Shown: in pieces, positions 3,498 through 11,623 of the stretch
Position numbering within the stretch: the stretch's first letter is position 1
How the letters are laid out: the number at the start of each line of letters is the position of its first letter
Origin: an uncultured Thermoanaerobaculum sp.
GTDB taxonomy: Bacteria > Acidobacteriota > Thermoanaerobaculia > Thermoanaerobaculales > Thermoanaerobaculaceae
DNA length: 64,000 nt
Direction: 5' to 3'
NCBI GenBank assembly: GCA_937934115.1
Contig: CALHAH010000007.1
Span: forward strand, 1-64,000
The notes under the pieces: model-generated
What the model was told of the DNA's origin: nothing
What the model saw: only the letters and a program-made list of their open reading frames with translations
Database searches by the model: none
Made by a program: the position numbers and the translations under genes

Positions 3498-3847
3498 GCT
3501 TTGCTGAAGTTGTCAGGCCCGTCACCGCGTGCCCTGGGCTTTTGGCGCTGGCCATTGCCGACCGCGAGGGCATCCCCGTGGAAAGCTGGGGGCCGGAAGC
3601 TTCGGAGGCGGAGGAGGTTGTGGCTGAGTACACGGGCTTCCTGCGGGAGCTCACCCATGCCAACCGCGAGCTCAAGCTCGGCAATTTGCACCAGGTGGTT
3701 ATCGCGGGAAGCCAGCGTGTCATCGTGGTGACGTTCATTACGCCCAATTATTACCTTTTCGCCGTGGTGGACAAGGACGGCAACCCCGGCAAGGCCCGCT
3801 TTCAAAGCCGCGTGGCAGCCTGGCGGCTACGTCCCGAGTTCATTTAG
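3494..3847 (+). CDS. Roadblock/LC7-domain protein
   Basis: 117 residues that fit a single roadblock/LC7 fold. The pattern is an N-terminal helix, a strand with L-A-I-A-D-R-E-G-I-P-V, a long helix ending in the E-L segment, then paired strands HQVVIAG and RVIVVTFI and a last strand YLFAVVD. Such proteins dimerise and in bacteria usually partner with MglA-type small GTPases or other NTPases. No GTPase is encoded nearby. Its start overlaps the TPR gene stop by 4 nt, suggesting that the two products act together. accB follows 15 bp later. Confidence 0.75.
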   Translation: MSFAEVVRPVTACPGLLALAIADREGIPVESWGPEASEAEEVVAEYTGFLRELTHANRELKLGNLHQVVIAGSQRVIVVTFITPNYYLFAVVDKDGNPGKARFQSRVAAWRLRPEFI

Positions 3848-3862
3848 AGTCGAGGGAGGACG

Positions 3863-4366
3863 ATGTTCACTTTTGAGGAGATTTGTCAGTTAATCCGTCT
3901 GGTGGCGGAAACCAGGGTTGGCGGTCTGGAGCTGGAAAGGGATGGCGCAAAGCTACGCATTGACGGGGTGCAGCCCGTGGCCGCACCGCCACCGGTGGTG
4001 GGTGCGCCTTTGGTTTCCGAGCAAGCCGTGCAGGCCTTAAAAACCGCCATGACAGCACTTTCCGCGCCCCCACAACCAGCACCCAGCCCGCCCGTGGCGG
4101 AAGAGGCAAAAGAGTCCGAGGATAACCTGCACTTCGTCACCTCGCCCATCGTCGGGACCTTTTACCGTGCCCCCAATCCCGATGCTGACCCTTTCGTACA
4201 GCCCGGTGACCGCGTGCGCAAGGGTCAAGTGCTTTGCATCGTCGAAGCTATGAAGCTCATGAACGAAATCGAATCTGATGTGGACGGGGTGATCGTCAAG
4301 ATTTATCCGGAAAACGCCCAACCGGTGGAGTTTGGAGAACGCCTCTTCGCCATTCGGGTGGACTGA
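3863..4366 (+). CDS. accB: Biotin carboxyl carrier protein of acetyl-CoA carboxylase
   Basis: 167 residues, normal for AccB. The N-terminal helical region (1-45) is followed by an Ala/Pro-rich flexible linker (about 48-90). The biotinyl domain then begins at VTSPIVGTFYRAP and contains EAMKLMNEI, with Lys131 as the expected biotin attachment site. It carries CO2 from AccC to the carboxyltransferase in the first step of fatty acid synthesis. GAGGGAGG precedes the ATG. accC follows after 6 bp; accA and accD are not in the window. Confidence 0.97.
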   Translation: MFTFEEICQLIRLVAETRVGGLELERDGAKLRIDGVQPVAAPPPVVGAPLVSEQAVQALKTAMTALSAPPQPAPSPPVAEEAKESEDNLHFVTSPIVGTFYRAPNPDADPFVQPGDRVRKGQVLCIVEAMKLMNEIESDVDGVIVKIYPENAQPVEFGERLFAIRVD

Positions 4367-4372
4367 GTTTCT

Positions 4373-5710
4373 ATGATCCGTAAGGTCCTCATTGCGAACC
4401 GCGGGGAAATTGCTGTGCGCATTATTGCCGCCTGTCGCGAGGCGGGCTTCGCTACGGTGGCAGTGCACTCGGAGGCCGACCGAGATTCCCTCCATGTGCG
4501 GCTCGCCGATGAGTCGGTGTGCATAGGGCCCCCTTACGCCAAGGAGTCGTACCTCAACATCACCGCCATCATTGCCGCTGCAGAAATCACCGGGGCGGAC
4601 GCCATTCACCCGGGTTACGGCTTTTTGGCAGAAAACGCCCATTTTGCGGAGGTTGTGCAGGAGTGTGGGCTCACTTGGATTGGACCGCCACCGGCGGCCA
4701 TTCGTCTCATGGGGGACAAGGCCGTAGCCCGCAAGACCGTGGCTGCCAGAGGGGTTCCGGTGGTTCCTGGGTCGCAAGAGCCCCTTAAAAGCCGCGAGGA
4801 AGCGGTGGAGCTGGCCCAGAACATTGGTTTTCCGGTGATTCTCAAGGCCTCCGCCGGTGGGGGGGGCAAAGGCATGCGCGTGGCCAACGATGCTCGTGAG
4901 CTGCGGTACGCCTTCGATACGGCTCGTCACGAAGCGGAACGTGCCTTTGGGGTTGGGGACGTGTACTTGGAGAAGTACCTCAAGAACCCCCGCCACATCG
5001 AAATCCAGGTGATGGCAGATCGCTTTGGCAAAGTGGCAGCTTTGGGAGAGCGGGAGTGCTCCATCCAGAGGCGGCACCAAAAGCTCATCGAGGAATCACC
5101 CTCCCCGGTAATTACCCCCGACCTGCGCAAGGCTATGGGGGACGCCGCCATTGCTGCCGCCAAAGCGGTGGGTTACGAGGGTGCTGGCACCGTTGAGTTC
5201 TTGTTTGAGGATGGGCGGTTTTACTTCATGGAGATGAACACGCGCATCCAAGTGGAGCACCCGGTGACGGAGCTGGTGACAGGCGTGGATTTGGTGCTGG
5301 AACAGCTTAACGTGGCCAGTGGCCACAAGCTGTCCTTTTCCCGCGGCGCAAAGCTTTCCGGCCATGCCATGGAGTTCCGCATCAACGCCGAGGATCCGGA
5401 AACCTTCGCCCCGTCCCCAGGCACCGTGAGCTTTTTAGCTCTCCCGGGGGGACCTGGGGTGCGCGTGGACACTCACCTTTACCGAGGCTACCGTATCCCA
5501 CCGTACTACGACTCGCTCATCGCCAAGCTCATTGTCTTTGGCAGGGATCGGGAGGAGGTGCTGCGGCGCGCGCGGAGGGCGCTTTCCATGTTCGTGGTGG
5601 AGGGGGTGAAGACCACCGTTCCCTTGCACCTCAAGATCTTGGAAGACACGGAGTTTCGACAAGGAAACCTCTCCACGCGCTTCATGGAGAGGTTTCTCGG
5701 CTCCCCTTGA
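4373..5710 (+). CDS. accC: Biotin carboxylase subunit of acetyl-CoA carboxylase
   Basis: 445 residues, full length. It begins with the biotin carboxylase signature [14 protein letters not shown], then [10 protein letters not shown]. The ATP-grasp glycine-rich loop (SAGGGGKGM), RDCSxQRR-type segment ([14 protein letters not shown]) and catalytic [16 protein letters not shown] follow. It carboxylates biotin on AccB using ATP and bicarbonate. The Shine-Dalgarno sequence is weak, consistent with coupling to accB 6 bp upstream. Its stop overlaps the aroK start. Confidence 0.97.
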
Positions 5711-6231
5711 GTGCCGCGACCCGGGTTTTTCTGGTGGGGTTCATGGGTTGTGGTAAGACAACCACGGGTGAGGCTTTGGCTCGGCGCTGGGGTTGGTCTT
5801 TCGTGGACCTGGATTGGCAAGTGGAGCGGGCCTTTGGTCTTTCGGTGCGGGACATCTTCGCCCAACACGGCGAGGCCGCCTTTCGCGCTGAGGAGGCGCG
5901 AAGGCTTTCGGAAGTCTGCCGCCAGGAACGGGTGGTGGTGGCCACCGGTGGCGGGACCTTTGTGGCGGAGGCCAACCGGGCCCTGGTGCAGAGGTCAGGG
6001 ATTTCCGTGTTCTTGGATGTACCTTGGGGGGAAATCCTGCGGCGGCTGCCACACAAGTGGGAGGAAAGGCCCCTTTTCCGCTCGCCGGAACAAGCCCTCG
6101 CGCTTTACCGCTCGCGTCTTCCCTTTTACCGTCTGGCAGACATCACGGTGCGCCCTTTATTTGGCGAAGATGCGGAAGCTTTGGCGGGTAGAATAGCGTT
6201 GCTTTTGAGGGGCTTTGCGTGCGCTACGTGA
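5707..6231 (+). CDS. aroK: Shikimate kinase
   Basis: 174 residues, the usual size. The Walker A is [11 protein letters not shown], the shikimate/Mg region is FVDLDWQVE, the FR segment with E-A-A-F-R is present, and the GGG motif appears as [12 protein letters not shown] lid arginine region (KWEERPLFR) follows. It phosphorylates shikimate in the chorismate pathway. The best start is TTG at 5707, overlapping the accC stop, because the P-loop begins only nine residues later and no ATG or GTG fits. The gene overlaps the following phosphoesterase by 13 bp. Confidence 0.93.
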
Positions 6232-6980
6232 TTTTTTCCGATGTTCACGCCAACATCGAGGCCTTGACCGCGGTGCTTGCCCATGCCGCCCGCAAACGAA
6301 AAGACGCCTGGGTTTTTCTGGGGGACGCCGTGGGTTACGGGGCTGCCCCCAACCAAGTGGTGGAACGCCTGCGTCGCCTCAAGGGGAAGCTTGTGGCGGT
6401 GCGGGGAAACCACGACCGGGTGGTCTTGGATCCGGCCTCTGGCATCGAGTTCTTTAACGATCACGCCAAGCTTGCGGCTCGGTGGACGTCCGTTGTGCTT
6501 CACCCTGGTAACCGGCGTTGGCTTGCTGGTGTGCCCGCGGGGCCGCTCTGGCTTGAGCCTCACATCGCGGCGTGTCACGGGGCGCCCCAGGACGAAGACA
6601 CCTACATTTTTGCCGACAGCGATGCCATAGAGGCCTTTGCTGCTGTCCCCCAGGCTTGGGTGGTTTTTTTTGGCCATTCCCACGTTCCTTGCATGTACAG
6701 CCTGCAGCGCGAAGGGGGAAAAGCTCTCAGCTTCGCGTTTCTCAAGGGTGCCGACAGGATCGAGCTTTTCCTTTCCCGCGAAAGCCGCTACCTCATTAAC
6801 GTCGGTGCGGTGGGCCAGCCCCGGGATCGGGATTGGCGACCGGCCTATGGTGTTTTTGATTCTGATCGCGGCAAGCTCACGATTTACCGGGTGGTTTACG
6901 ATGCGCACGCAGCACGCAAGCGCATCTTAGATGCGGGTTTGCCGCAAATCCTGGGGGACCGACTGGTCCGTGGGTACTAG
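6219..6980 (+). CDS. Calcineurin-like metallophosphoesterase (YfcE/MJ0936 type)
   Basis: 253 residues. The dinuclear-metal motifs occur in order: SDVHANIEAL, FLGDAVGYG, GNHDRVV, CHGAPQ and FFGHSHVP. This small cytosolic class hydrolyses phosphodiesters or phosphomonoesters; the substrate cannot be told from sequence. The GTG start lies inside the end of aroK behind TTGAGGGG, so it is probably translated from the accBC-aroK transcript. The C-terminal ~90 residues, after the conserved NVGAVGQPRD turn, close the fold. Confidence 0.88.
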   Translation: MRYVIFSDVHANIEALTAVLAHAARKRKDAWVFLGDAVGYGAAPNQVVERLRRLKGKLVAVRGNHDRVVLDPASGIEFFNDHAKLAARWTSVVLHPGNRRWLAGVPAGPLWLEPHIAACHGAPQDEDTYIFADSDAIEAFAAVPQAWVVFFGHSHVPCMYSLQREGGKALSFAFLKGADRIELFLSRESRYLINVGAVGQPRDRDWRPAYGVFDSDRGKLTIYRVVYDAHAARKRILDAGLPQILGDRLVRGY

Positions 6981-6998
6981 CCCATGGGGAGGGAAGCT

Positions 6999-9422
6999 GT
7001 GAGGCGAACAGTGCTGGCGCTTTCTTTTGGCCTGGTGCTGGCAGCAAAAGCCGCAGGGGCTGAGGATGACTTAGCTGCCAGGCTTTTGCAAATGGCGGAG
7101 GCGAGAAGCTTCGATGCTGAGACCCTGCTGGCCGCTGCCGAAAGCAGGGAGGCGCGGTGGCGAAAGCAGGCAGCCAGGCTTTTGGGCCATTTTCCACGGG
7201 AAAGCGCCGTAAAGGTAGCTCTAGGGTTGGCCCGGGATCCGCAGCCCGAGGTGCGAGCGGAAGCTCTGGCTTCCCTGGGCCGGCTTGCCCCTTGGCTTGC
7301 CCATCCGTCCTGGCATGCCCGCGTGCGCAAGGCCTTAAGTGCTGGGCTTCTGGATCCCTCGCCGGTGGTTCGAGAAGCCGCGGTGTGGGCTTGGGCAGCG
7401 GCAGGCGAGGCCGACACGGTGTTTCTGGAAGCCTTAAGCCGGGAGCGGGACACCGCGGTGCGCGCGGCAGTCCTCCAAGAACTTTGGCGCACCTCTGGCG
7501 ATGGCTGGCCGGCCGTGGCTTTGCGTTACACCAAGGCAGTGCCAGCGGAGCTGCGGTGGTCCGCCCTTTGGTCGCTTGCGCGCAAGGGGGGTGATGAGCT
7601 GGTTTCGAGCTTGCCCGAGCTGTTGCGTGATTCCGATCCCCGTATCCGTCTTTTGGCCTGCGAGGCGGTGCGGCGGCACCAGCTTTCGTCTTTTGCTTCC
7701 CAAGTGGCGGGGCTGTGGGCCGATCCCGAGGAGGGGGTACGTGTGGCTGCCATGAACGCCTTGGCGGAACTGGGATCTGCAGCTGCCCAGGTGGTCACCG
7801 GCAAAGCCCTGCGCGACCTCACCCAACTCATTACCAGTGAGGACCTGGAGCACCCCCATGGGCGGGTGGCTGCGGTTCGCCTGGCAGGAGCTCTCGGTTG
7901 TTGCCGCGAAGCCTTGATGTCTCTTGTAGCGGAAGGTGGTTGGGCCGGGGGCGAAGCCCTGCTGGCCCTGGCGCGGCAAGGGGTGAGGCAGGCGGTAGAG
8001 CAGGAGCTAGCCTCACCAGACCCCAGTTTCCGCCGCTGGGCGGTGCTGGCCTTACCCTACCTGGCTAAAGGCCAGGACCTTTTGCTGAAGGCCTTTGCCG
8101 ACCCTGACGCAGGGGTGCGGTTGGCAGCAGCGGAAGTGGCCAGCAAAATGCCGGCTTCCACGCCCGCTGCCGAGCTTGCGAAGCTTTTGTCGGACAACGA
8201 TAGCGCCGTGCGGGCGCAGGCGGCGGAAAGCCTGTACGCCCTGGGGCAACCCCCGAGTCCCTCCACCTTGGCCAAGCTTTTGGACCAAGAGCTGGCCGGC
8301 GTGCCAACGGAAGCCGCGGTGAGTTTGGTGAGGCTTTTGGGAAAACCGGAAACCCTCACACCCGAGGCAGCGTCGGCTTTGGAGAAGGCCCGCGCAAGTC
8401 GCACTCCGGCGGTAGCCATAGCTGCCTGGGAGGAGCTGTTCCGCCACGGCCGGCTACGGGGTTTCCCCGTTGGCTCTCCCACCAAGCCGTTATCGGCATT
8501 TAAAGAAGTGGCGCGTTTTGCGCAAAAGCGGCGGTACGGCGAAGTGGTGACGGTGCGCGGCACCTTCACCGTGGCGCTGGACACCGAAGACGCACCCATC
8601 ACCACGTACACCCTGTGCCAGCTAGCGGATACGAAGTTCTTTGACAACCTCACCTTCCACCGCGTGGTGAGCAACTTTGTGGTGCAAGGAGGGGATCCCC
8701 GCGGCGACGGCTGGGGTGGACCGGGGTTTTTCCTTCCGGACGAGCTTTCCCGCAAGCCGTTTGTGGCGGGCTCCGTGGGTATGGCACTGGCCGGGCCCGA
8801 CACCGGCGGCTCGCAGTTTTTTGTCACCCTGGCGGATGCACCGCACCTCAACGGGCGCTACCCGCGGGTGGGCTCGGTAGCTTCGGGTTTCGAGGTGGTG
8901 CGGCGCCTGCAGGTGGGCGACAAGATCCTGCGGATTCGCTGCGGCGAAGGGTCGGCCCCCGTGCCGGTGCCGGTTTGGTACGGCCCTCTTTCCGTGGAAA
9001 AGCTGGAGCGGGAAATCCCCGAGTTTCGCCAAAACCGGGAACACTACCAACCAAAGGAAGAGTGGCTCTCCTTCCTGCGAAAAACCACCTCCAAGTACGC
9101 CTTGGTGGTGGCCATGGGGACCTGGTGCTCCGATTCCCGGGAGCAGATCCCCAGGCTTTTGAAAATCCACGAGGTATTAGGGAAGGGGAGTCCCTTTTCC
9201 CAGATCACGCTCCTCGGCGTGGACCGCGGCAAAAAGGTGGTGCCAGCAGCTGCGTTTCCCTTTGGGGCGGTGGAGCGGGTTCCCATCATCGTGGTGACCT
9301 TTGGCGGGGCCGAGGTGGGGAGGGTAGTGGAGACCCCGCTGGCCCCCACCCTGGAAGAAGACCTGGTGCGCATCCTGGCTCCTGTGGAGGGCTGGGAGCT
9401 ACCGGAAGAAGGGCAAGAATAA
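6999..9422 (+). CDS. Secreted HEAT-repeat, cyclophilin and thioredoxin-like fusion
   Basis: 807 residues with three parts. A signal peptide (about 1-20, ending AKAAGA) is followed by a long alpha-helical HEAT array to about residue 490, with repeated R-x-x-A-x-x-x-L units. A cyclophilin-type peptidyl-prolyl isomerase domain follows (about 510-660) with NLTFHRVV near 550, VQGGDP, and GGSQFFVTL near 602. A C-terminal thioredoxin-like domain (about 680-795) has GTWCSDSR near 706 and a cis-Pro region (ERVPIIVV); it has one cysteine rather than CxxC. GTG at 6999 was preferred over ATG at 6984 because GGGGAGGG lies at 6986-6993. It is probably a periplasmic foldase. Confidence 0.85.
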   Translation: MRRTVLALSFGLVLAAKAAGAEDDLAARLLQMAEARSFDAETLLAAAESREARWRKQAARLLGHFPRESAVKVALGLARDPQPEVRAEALASLGRLAPWLAHPSWHARVRKALSAGLLDPSPVVREAAVWAWAAAGEADTVFLEALSRERDTAVRAAVLQELWRTSGDGWPAVALRYTKAVPAELRWSALWSLARKGGDELVSSLPELLRDSDPRIRLLACEAVRRHQLSSFASQVAGLWADPEEGVRVAAMNALAELGSAAAQVVTGKALRDLTQLITSEDLEHPHGRVAAVRLAGALGCCREALMSLVAEGGWAGGEALLALARQGVRQAVEQELASPDPSFRRWAVLALPYLAKGQDLLLKAFADPDAGVRLAAAEVASKMPASTPAAELAKLLSDNDSAVRAQAAESLYALGQPPSPSTLAKLLDQELAGVPTEAAVSLVRLLGKPETLTPEAASALEKARASRTPAVAIAAWEELFRHGRLRGFPVGSPTKPLSAFKEVARFAQKRRYGEVVTVRGTFTVALDTEDAPITTYTLCQLADTKFFDNLTFHRVVSNFVVQGGDPRGDGWGGPGFFLPDELSRKPFVAGSVGMALAGPDTGGSQFFVTLADAPHLNGRYPRVGSVASGFEVVRRLQVGDKILRIRCGEGSAPVPVPVWYGPLSVEKLEREIPEFRQNREHYQPKEEWLSFLRKTTSKYALVVAMGTWCSDSREQIPRLLKIHEVLGKGSPFSQITLLGVDRGKKVVPAAAFPFGAVERVPIIVVTFGGAEVGRVVETPLAPTLEEDLVRILAPVEGWELPEEGQE

Positions 9423-9432
9423 AAGGGGGGTT

Positions 9433-10407
9433 ATGGCTAAAGTGGTGGCCACCTCGCCACTTCCTGGCGTTGCCTTGCAACGTTTGGGAGCTCACCACCA
9501 ACTGCAGGTGCGCAGCGGGCCTCCGCTTGCAGGTTGGCAGCTGGCGGATTTTGTGGGCGATGCCGACGCCCTCATTTGCCTTTTGGCGGACCGCGTGACG
9601 GCGGAGCTCTTTGCCCAGGCAAAAAACCTGAAGGTGGTGGCGGTGTACGCGGTGGGGGTAAACAACGTGGACTTAGCCGCGGCATTCCAAGCCGGCGTAT
9701 GGGTCACCAATACCCCGGACGTGCTCACCGACGCCACGGCCGATTTGACCATGGCTTTGCTTTTGGCGGTGACTCGCCGGGTGGTAGAGGGGGACCGGTT
9801 CGTGCGGGACGGGCGCTTTACCGGCTGGGCTCCGGATTTGCTTTTGGGCACCGGCCTTCAGGGGAAGCTCTTGGGCATCGTGGGGTTTGGCCGCATTGGC
9901 CAAGCGGTGGCCCGTCGCGCCCAAGCTTTTGCCATGCGCGTGGCCTATTCCTCTCGTCGCCCCCATCCCGAGGCGGGCATTCCCAATGCGGTTTTCGTGC
10001 CTAGCGTGGACGAGCTTTTGGCCCAGGCCGACTTCATTTCCCTCCACTGCCCGCTTACCGCGGAAACCCGACACCTCTTGCATCGCGAAAGGCTTTTCCG
10101 CATGAAACAGGGGGCCTTTCTCATCAACGCCGCGCGGGGAGAAGTGGTGGACGAGGAAGCCCTCGTGGAAGCGCTCGCCGCCGGTCATTTGGCAGGAGCC
10201 GGTTTGGACGTTTACGAGCAGGAACCCCGTGTCCACCCGGGGCTTTTGCAGCTTCCCAACGTGGTGCTGCTGCCGCACCTGGGCTCAGCCACCCGGGAAA
10301 CCCGGGAGGCCATGGCTGATTTGGTGGTGGACAACGTGCGGGCGGTGCTTGCGGGAAAACCGCCTCTCACGCCGGTGGTGGGGCCGGGGCTTCCACCCGC
10401 ACCTTGA
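9433..10407 (+). CDS. D-isomer-specific 2-hydroxyacid dehydrogenase (glyoxylate reductase-like)
   Basis: 324 residues. The substrate domain contains AVGVNNVDL and the NAD(P)-binding Rossmann motif is GIVGFGRIGQAVARR. The catalytic Arg (INAARGEVVDE), Glu (DVYEQEP) and His (LLPHLGSAT) are all present. It reduces 2-oxoacids such as glyoxylate or hydroxypyruvate; the exact substrate is uncertain. It starts 10 bp after the HEAT/cyclophilin gene behind GGGGGG-rich sequence. Its 3' end overlaps the opposing CorC-like gene by 41 bp. Confidence 0.9.
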   Translation: MAKVVATSPLPGVALQRLGAHHQLQVRSGPPLAGWQLADFVGDADALICLLADRVTAELFAQAKNLKVVAVYAVGVNNVDLAAAFQAGVWVTNTPDVLTDATADLTMALLLAVTRRVVEGDRFVRDGRFTGWAPDLLLGTGLQGKLLGIVGFGRIGQAVARRAQAFAMRVAYSSRRPHPEAGIPNAVFVPSVDELLAQADFISLHCPLTAETRHLLHRERLFRMKQGAFLINAARGEVVDEEALVEALAAGHLAGAGLDVYEQEPRVHPGLLQLPNVVLLPHLGSATRETREAMADLVVDNVRAVLAGKPPLTPVVGPGLPPAP

Positions 10408-11623
10408 GCACCCGGCGGGGGGTGGCTTCCAGCACCGTTAAGCTCACCTCCCGATGGACAAAGCGAGCACCTTTTTGCGGGACTTTCCCCGCAAGGGTGA
10501 GGAGCAACCCTGCCACCGAGTTCACTTTGGCTGATGGCGCCAGCTGATACCCGGTGAGCCTGGATAGGCGCTCCAGTGGCAGCGAGCCGCTCACCACCCA
10601 AACACGCTCGCCTAGCTCCTGCACCAAAGGCCCTTGCATGTCGAACTCGTCGCGAATGTCACCGACGATGGTCTCCAAGACGTCCTCCAAGGTCACGATG
10701 CCAGACACCGCACCGTACTCGTCGATGGAAACTGCCAAGTGCAGGCGCCTTTCCCGCATTTGGGAAAGCACCTCCACCAAGCGGGTGCTTTCCGTTACGC
10801 ACAAAGGGGGCTTGAGGTAGGCGGTCCACGGCTTGCCTTCCACTTGGCAGCGCAATAGATCCCGAGCGTGAAGCACCCCTACCACGTTGTCGTCCCGCTC
10901 GTGGTACACGGGGTAGCGGGAAAAACCGGAGCTCAGCACCACGTTCCGCACCTCAGGAAGTGTCAAGCTGTCCGCCAACATCACTACGTCCGGTCGCGGC
11001 ACCTGGACGTCGCGAACCACCGCCCGTTCCAGGGCAAGAACGGCTTCCACCATGCCCAGCTGCTGTTGCGACAGATAGCCTTCCTGATGGGAAAGGGAAA
11101 GCAAGAACCGCACGTCCTCCAGGGTGGCGGCGGCCGGAGTGCCAGAAAGCGGTGTGCCGCGAAATTTGGCCACCAATTGCGAAATTCCCAAAAGTGGCCC
11201 GGTAAAAGGCGTGAGAACCACGTCGAAAAAAGCCACGGGTACCACGGCCCAGGAGGCAAAGGTTTCCGGGTCCACGCGCGCTAGGGTCTTGGGGGTCACC
11301 TCTCCAAAAACCAAAAGCGCCAGGGTCATGGTGCCCACCGCCAAAGCCAACCCCTGGTTGCCGAAGAGCCGCAGGGCCAGCTCCGTGGCAAGGGCGGAAA
11401 TGCCAACGTTGGTGGCGTTGTTCAAAACCAAAAGCGTTACCAAAACCCGGTGCGGCCGTTCCCGCCATCGTCGCCAGGCCCCCCGAATGATGTGGCTTTT
11501 TGACCGGGAAAAAACCTCCACCCGGGAAATGGGCAGGGCGGTAAGGGCCGTCTCGGAGGCGGAGCAAAAGGCGGAGAAGGCTAAGCCAAAAAGCAAGAGC
11601 ACAAGCGTAGTAGCAACTGTCAT
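10367..11623 (-). CDS. CNNM/HlyC-CorC family membrane protein
   Basis: About 418 residues. An N-terminal DUF21/CNNM transmembrane domain (first helix TTLVLLLFGLAFSAFCSASE, then LALAVGTMTLALLVFGE and others) carries the conserved ASETAL and FGEVTPK motifs. Two CBS domains (about 190-315) and a C-terminal CorC/HlyC domain (about 330-410) follow. Family members act in Mg2+/Co2+ export or efflux control. The start is uncertain: ATG 11623 begins just before the first helix, and an in-frame TTG at 11671 would add 16 residues. Neither has a good Shine-Dalgarno; a TACCAT lies 8 nt before the ATG. Confidence 0.87.
   Translation of the reverse strand: MTVATTLVLLLFGLAFSAFCSASETALTALPISRVEVFSRSKSHIIRGAWRRWRERPHRVLVTLLVLNNATNVGISALATELALRLFGNQGLALAVGTMTLALLVFGEVTPKTLARVDPETFASWAVVPVAFFDVVLTPFTGPLLGISQLVAKFRGTPLSGTPAAATLEDVRFLLSLSHQEGYLSQQQLGMVEAVLALERAVVRDVQVPRPDVVMLADSLTLPEVRNVVLSSGFSRYPVYHERDDNVVGVLHARDLLRCQVEGKPWTAYLKPPLCVTESTRLVEVLSQMRERRLHLAVSIDEYGAVSGIVTLEDVLETIVGDIRDEFDMQGPLVQELGERVWVVSGSLPLERLSRLTGYQLAPSAKVNSVAGLLLTLAGKVPQKGARFVHREVSLTVLEATPRRVLKVRVEAPAPPPA

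Follow-up and report, generated by a model that had tools for sequence, protein, structure and literature searches.

A conserved HEAT-cyclophilin-thioredoxin-like fusion protein with a predicted export signal in Thermoanaerobaculia

Results

A three-domain fusion protein in a conserved gene cluster

The window, i.e. the whole 64,000-nucleotide stretch of DNA from an uncultured Thermoanaerobaculum sp. that was analysed, carries on its forward strand an open reading frame (ORF) whose product starts with a signal peptide, continues with ~14 HEAT repeats and a cyclophilin, and ends in a thioredoxin-fold domain in which WCSDS replaces CxxC. The features of the locus are the following:

5707..6231, + strand, shikimate kinase, conserved upstream neighbour (Pfam; synteny)
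6219..6980, + strand, calcineurin-like metallophosphoesterase, conserved upstream neighbour (Pfam; synteny)
6984..9422, + strand, HEAT-cyclophilin-thioredoxin-like fusion ORF, 812 aa (ORF list, Pfam)
6984..7061, + strand, signal peptide (RRTVLALSFGLVLAAKAAGA, then EDD), without lipobox (read by eye; hydrophobic peak)
7074..8444, + strand, HEAT solenoid, about residues 31-487 (Pfam HEAT_2; AlphaFold model)
8526..8948, + strand, cyclophilin domain, residues 515-655 (Pfam; alignment; model match to solved cyclophilins)
8970..9401, + strand, thioredoxin-like WCxDS domain, residues 663-806 (profiles, AlphaFold model, structure comparison)
9123..9137, + strand, W714-C715-S716-D717-S718, with the sole invariant cysteine and Ser at the resolving position (alignment)
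9433..10407, + strand, D-2-hydroxyacid dehydrogenase, conserved downstream neighbour (Pfam; synteny)

Two candidate starts are present, ATG 6984 (the one in the ORF list) and GTG 6999, 15 bases later. The earlier note on this DNA, whose frame and stop are correct, had placed the start at GTG 6999, which is plausible because inspection of the upstream sequence revealed GGGGAGGG directly 5' of it. Its description of a secreted protein is supported by the by-eye reading, the hydrophobic peak and the signal peptides also found in homologues. Promoter and terminator scans of positions 3500-10500 gave nothing useful.

The proposed domain order is borne out by Pfam for the HEAT and cyclophilin parts and by the predicted fold for the third; the AlphaFold model of the whole protein (pTM 0.85, 21 aligned rows) displays helices, then the cyclophilin, then an alpha/beta domain. 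As this order is conserved in relatives down to about 30-40% identity, it is beyond chance. The claim that no named family has this order agrees with Pfam and NCBIfam, the latter having no family that covers the whole protein, and with the titles and abstract openings returned by literature searches on the fusion architecture, the WCxDS motif and PA1234, in which nothing relevant appeared. Overall, the architecture is real and conserved, and the protein is a putative, apparently undescribed variant of envelope folding factors.

The gene order accB-accC-aroK-phosphoesterase-fusion-dehydrogenase (gene names by Pfam) is kept across families f1 and f2 (labels f1, f2, etc. denote families within our class survey, see below) wherever the contig reaches, except in L042 and L041, where the dehydrogenase is missing or displaced. 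Since these neighbours are cytoplasmic housekeeping enzymes, the cluster is uninformative on folding.

A thioredoxin-like domain with a single invariant cysteine

By sequence alone, the third domain falls below the curated cut-off, because Thioredoxin_9 (PF14595) matches it, over residues 680-732, with just 15.8 bits in the whole protein and 19.9 bits for the domain alone (cut-off 25). The same profile matches 11/11 aligned relatives at E<=1 (best 1.8e-6), and the relatives L051, L055 and L062 exceed its cut-off. Modelled alone, the domain reaches an AlphaFold pLDDT of 93.5 (38 rows), and its nearest solved structure is 1z6n (PA1234; VIA-align Z 12.0, rmsd 2.7 over 128 residues), followed by thioredoxins and disulfide oxidoreductases at Z of about 7-9. 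As modelled, the last domain is thus thioredoxin-like in fold despite its sub-threshold sequence score, which removes the objection that the earlier note had itself anticipated, namely that this domain might be something else.

That note had also spoken of one cysteine, which holds for the thioredoxin-like domain and fails for the whole protein, in which there are six (226, 306, 307, 545, 653 and 715). Only C715 is invariant (21/21 aligned rows), in support of a single active-site cysteine; C306 and C307 are each found in 10/19 rows, and C226, C545 and C653 are hardly ever kept. WCxDS, not CxxC, is present in 24/24 loci bearing the domain (24 of the 30 loci examined), and the G[TS]WCxDS motif in all the fused, adjacent and slot-solo copies read. 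Among 45 loci read, WCxDS occurs in 30/30 of the best matches to a profile made almost entirely from WCxDS proteins, and 15 lower-scoring places that we chose comprise 3 WCxDS and 12 WCxxC. An earlier search gave 79/80 WCxDS, the exception being Ferrimonas with WCPDC, but this count is biased because the search required DNA patterns for either [VT][AV][ML]G[TS]WCxDS or GxE[LV]GR[VI]VE[TS]. As the twelve lower-scoring relatives from the class are WCxxC, the Ser form marks a WCxDS subfamily.

The same profile thus picks up a second, dithiol WCxxC subfamily throughout the class (L221-L226, L229, L230 and L232-L235).

With Ser at the resolving position throughout, dithiol exchange of the CxxC type is impossible inside the domain, so that, judging from the sequences, single-cysteine chemistry or adaptor binding remains for the C715 domain. 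The usual cis-Pro position is Ala in the fused rows L020, L021, L028 and L030, which could weaken client contact. DsbD is present at full length (578 aa) in the organism's own genome, next to which a further transmembrane protein is DsbD-like, so that reducing power has a route into the periplasm. VKOR was sought in this genome and not found.

Could the domain be a non-redox adaptor, binding an envelope partner or client, with its cysteine structural or modified? The resolving cysteine is absent from every fused copy read, and residues away from C715 are equally conserved, D747, E777, G779, R780 and E783 being invariant columns of the domain. We nevertheless consider this rather unlikely, as members across phyla retain both the cysteine and WCxDS, whether they are fused, adjacent or stand-alone, beyond what the fold needs (one of the searches having partly selected for the motif).

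The fusion is confined to Thermoanaerobaculia among the genomes searched

We surveyed 148 Thermoanaerobaculia genomes, counting as fused three parts, or the cyclophilin and thioredoxin-like parts, that share one ORF; fusion and adjacency counts were taken from match tables, and a subset of the sequences was inspected. The fusion lies in one ORF in 29/148 genomes (14/17 in f1, 8/20 in f2, six in f6 and one in f8), and is broken at contig ends in 2 more. The latter are G002 and G011 of f1; G016, also of f1 and 74% complete, holds none. A whole-protein scan of the collected contigs returned no match; the last-domain profile did yield relatives, the named ones belonging to Thermoanaerobaculum, Thermoanaerobaculaceae and other Acidobacteriota, the closest being Thermoanaerobaculum sp. 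SKYB76 (L032). In a HEAT-cyclophilin tree (67 rows, quick search), fused f1 and f2 rows and fused f6 and f8 rows form separate clades with unfused rows between them. The thioredoxin-like trees (101 and 55 rows) display three clades; for the 55-row set, topology tests reject neither a single group of all fused rows (p-AU 0.737) nor the alternatives (0.724 and 0.692), so that the trees are compatible with one fusion event as well as with two. As far as sequences can tell, the fusion arose long ago and has been inherited since.

HEAT-cyclophilins without the thioredoxin-like part are widespread in Acidobacteriota, usually with a lipobox. In a phylum survey of 297 genomes, 130 match at 1e-25, many to the cyclophilin part alone; examples of HEAT-cyclophilins without the last domain, i.e. 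with a match that begins ahead of residue 60 and stops short of residue 665, are found in G267, G388, G314, G235, G174, G155, G409, G353, G299 and G175. Whether the architecture is already common in the phylum, a caveat of the earlier note, thus has a divided answer: HEAT-cyclophilin is common, but the fused thioredoxin-like part was found only in Thermoanaerobaculia among the genomes searched.

The WCxDS module is also found in other settings. It ends exported proteins of the Peptidase_S9 (prolyl oligopeptidase) family in two Krumholzibacteriota (L065:3-2459, start cut off, and L088:2169-5318); that it is joined to a prolyl isomerase in one case and to a member of the prolyl oligopeptidase family in the other could be coincidental. 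In Chryseosolibacter (L067), it precedes a TPR stretch. Exported acidobacterial proteins of ~510 aa (L051:5530-7065 and L072:2568-4154) carry the domain mid-chain with ~225 residues after it, and a Pfam scan of the L051 protein gives no match beyond the WCxDS domain. No clue to function came from the genes next to stand-alone relatives in other phyla: 12/12 downstream genes read, picked for their recurring size (280-295 aa), look by eye like pantothenate synthetase, and the genes beside four other stand-alone relatives differ.

The two halves recur as adjacent genes

In 12/148 genomes, from f12, f13, f16 and f17, an unfused WCxDS gene lies directly 3' of an unfused HEAT-cyclophilin gene on the same strand (17 loci examined, 5 of which are without one partner within the stretch covered). 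The gap from the HEAT-cyclophilin stop to the WCxDS start is -4 to 44 nt in the 12 pairs, and the WCxDS gene has about 200 codons and its own export signal. Some pairs share the outer neighbours of the fused order, with HEAT-cyclophilin-thioredoxin-dehydrogenase in L209 and L213, and aroK-phosphoesterase-HEAT-cyclophilin-thioredoxin in L204, L205 and L207. That the halves are fused in some lineages and adjacent in others is, at the level of sequence, good evidence for a role in one shared process, which does not by itself prove contact between them.

At the junction of the unfused pairs, a TAnnnT hexamer overlaps or follows the HEAT-cyclophilin stop in 12/12 cases (L155 and L203-L213), reading TA[GA]ACT in 9, and stands about 6-10 nt 5' of a start codon (spacing by eye). 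Such placement resembles that of the -10 element of leaderless mRNA. Elsewhere, TA[GA]ACT precedes the start of 3/80, 1/107, 0/42, 0/66 and 0/41 ORFs of 200 or more codons, where the 3/80 may include thioredoxin-like genes.

Predicted anchoring differs between lineages. Reading 61 HEAT-cyclophilin proteins, we observed a lipobox after the hydrophobic stretch in 0/22 from f1 and f2, which belong to the window's taxonomic order, in 29/32 of the unfused proteins from other families and in 6/7 of the fused ones from other families; note that the lipobox pattern missed a cysteine present at this place in L156, L208 and L149, and that the start of L113 was not located. WCxDS proteins of adjacent pairs also have a lipobox, read by eye, in L204, L205, L206, L207, L208, L209 and L155. 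As the lipobox is nearly everywhere in the class but absent in the proteins read from the window's taxonomic order, these sequences suggest that the ancestral HEAT-cyclophilin was probably lipid-anchored and switched to soluble export in that order.

The same slot can also be occupied by one half. In one f2 genus, 4 genomes have a HEAT-cyclophilin there without the last domain; in another genus, 2 genomes have an exported thioredoxin-like domain with no HEAT-cyclophilin; G026 and G029 have neither half. The two thioredoxin-only rows nest among the f2 fused rows (support 92 in the 101-row tree), which looks like secondary loss of the HEAT-cyclophilin. A HEAT-cyclophilin stands alone between the phosphoesterase and the dehydrogenase in G047 (f9), G137 and G056 (f10) and G141 (f4), and in f6 a search at E<=1e-6 gave no thioredoxin-like match in 12/18 of the genomes with a HEAT-cyclophilin. 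With only the thioredoxin-like part in one genus and only the HEAT-cyclophilin in another, the halves can come apart, so the combination is not obligatory.

This persistence of each half alone, the repeated lack of the last part in f6, and a second start that keeps the reading frame of the first gene in 4/12 adjacent pairs would all suit two unrelated exported proteins that happen to share a locus and became fused by stop-codon loss, with little functional meaning. We regard such independence as unlikely, given that the fusion is kept in 16/17 f1 genomes (2 as contig-end pieces) and present in two clades, and that adjacency recurs in four families.

The HEAT solenoid and the cyclophilin

HEAT_2 (PF13646) scores 105.7 bits against a cut-off of 27.7, with repeats from residue 46 on, and the AlphaFold model (21 rows) has 29 helices spanning residues 45-487. 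For the cyclophilin, Pro_isomerase (PF00160) scores 107.1 bits over residues 522-645 (cut-off 21.7), and structure comparison with solved cyclophilins gives Z of 17-20. The FHRV and GGSQFF motifs on which the domain had been recognized are present. R560, F565, Q568, Q611, F613 and L622, which we take to be CypA R55, F60, Q63, Q111, F113 and L122, are invariant in 21/21 aligned rows, and the position that presumably corresponds to CypA A101 is kept in 20/21. With its catalytic residues intact, the domain looks competent, as the earlier note supposed, and isomerase activity is predicted from sequence. Up to E 1, a Pfam scan revealed neither an FKBP domain beside the cyclophilin nor a TPR match.

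Very improbable, in our view, is a holdase or envelope scaffold whose cyclophilin merely binds peptides, catalysis being immaterial: no other part is as large as the HEAT solenoid, and the positions presumed equivalent to CypA W121 and H126 are His and Tyr, but the catalytic arginine and its surrounding residues are invariant.

Discussion

A putative joint folding factor of the envelope

We favor, with a probability of about one half, an exported joint folding factor whose two halves are encoded by neighbouring genes in relatives. A HEAT-cyclophilin, mostly lipobox-bearing in relatives, occupies position X in accB-accC-aroK-phosphoesterase-X-dehydrogenase. In four families, the next gene after the HEAT-cyclophilin is a WCxDS thioredoxin-like one; four further families have the two fused. 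After export, a client that is extended or partly folded would be held by the solenoid and have its prolines isomerised by the cyclophilin, and the thioredoxin-like domain, tethered alongside, would contact this client via its one nucleophilic cysteine. C715 might form a transient mixed disulfide or react with an oxidised cysteine, and DsbD could reset it; the client would be held, or its cysteines protected, while its prolines are turned. We thus infer isomerase and thiol activity, a client-binding scaffold, mixed-disulfide capture and joint action on clients.

Envelope protein folding is known mainly from E. coli-like bacteria. Through fusion and adjacency in genomes, a prolyl isomerase becomes linked to a one-cysteine thioredoxin-like family that is widespread and to which the titles and abstract openings of the literature searched assign no function; the link offers this family a functional lead and a testable partner.

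Comparison with known systems

The unnamed HEAT-cyclophilin proteins of Acidobacteriota resemble the fusion in having N-terminal HEAT repeats followed by a cyclophilin, at the same locus in several families, but they are without the thioredoxin-like part and mostly have a lipobox. Stand-alone WCxDS proteins of Bacteroidota, Ignavibacteria and others share the domain, motif and export signal of the last part, but are single-domain, mostly of 165-190 aa, and have no isomerase. PpiA, SurA and FkpA are likewise exported, periplasmic prolyl isomerases; unlike the fusion, they have neither a HEAT solenoid nor a thioredoxin-like domain. ERp44 of the eukaryotic ER has a thioredoxin-fold domain with CxxS and traps clients via one cysteine, by analogy a likeness to the fusion, but its chain has no isomerase. 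A speculative extension, which we hold to be doubtful, is that the fusion is a bacterial counterpart, in one chain, of the ER cyclophilin/thioredoxin-fold partnership, in which the cysteine would hold cysteine-bearing clients through a mixed disulfide while, on the HEAT cradle, their prolines are turned by the neighbouring cyclophilin, the same pair being two, often lipid-anchored, proteins in sister families. Finally, the dual-family immunophilin, as far as the available part of its description goes, also joins a prokaryotic cyclophilin to a helical-repeat or second folding domain, but has a second isomerase where the fusion has a thioredoxin fold.
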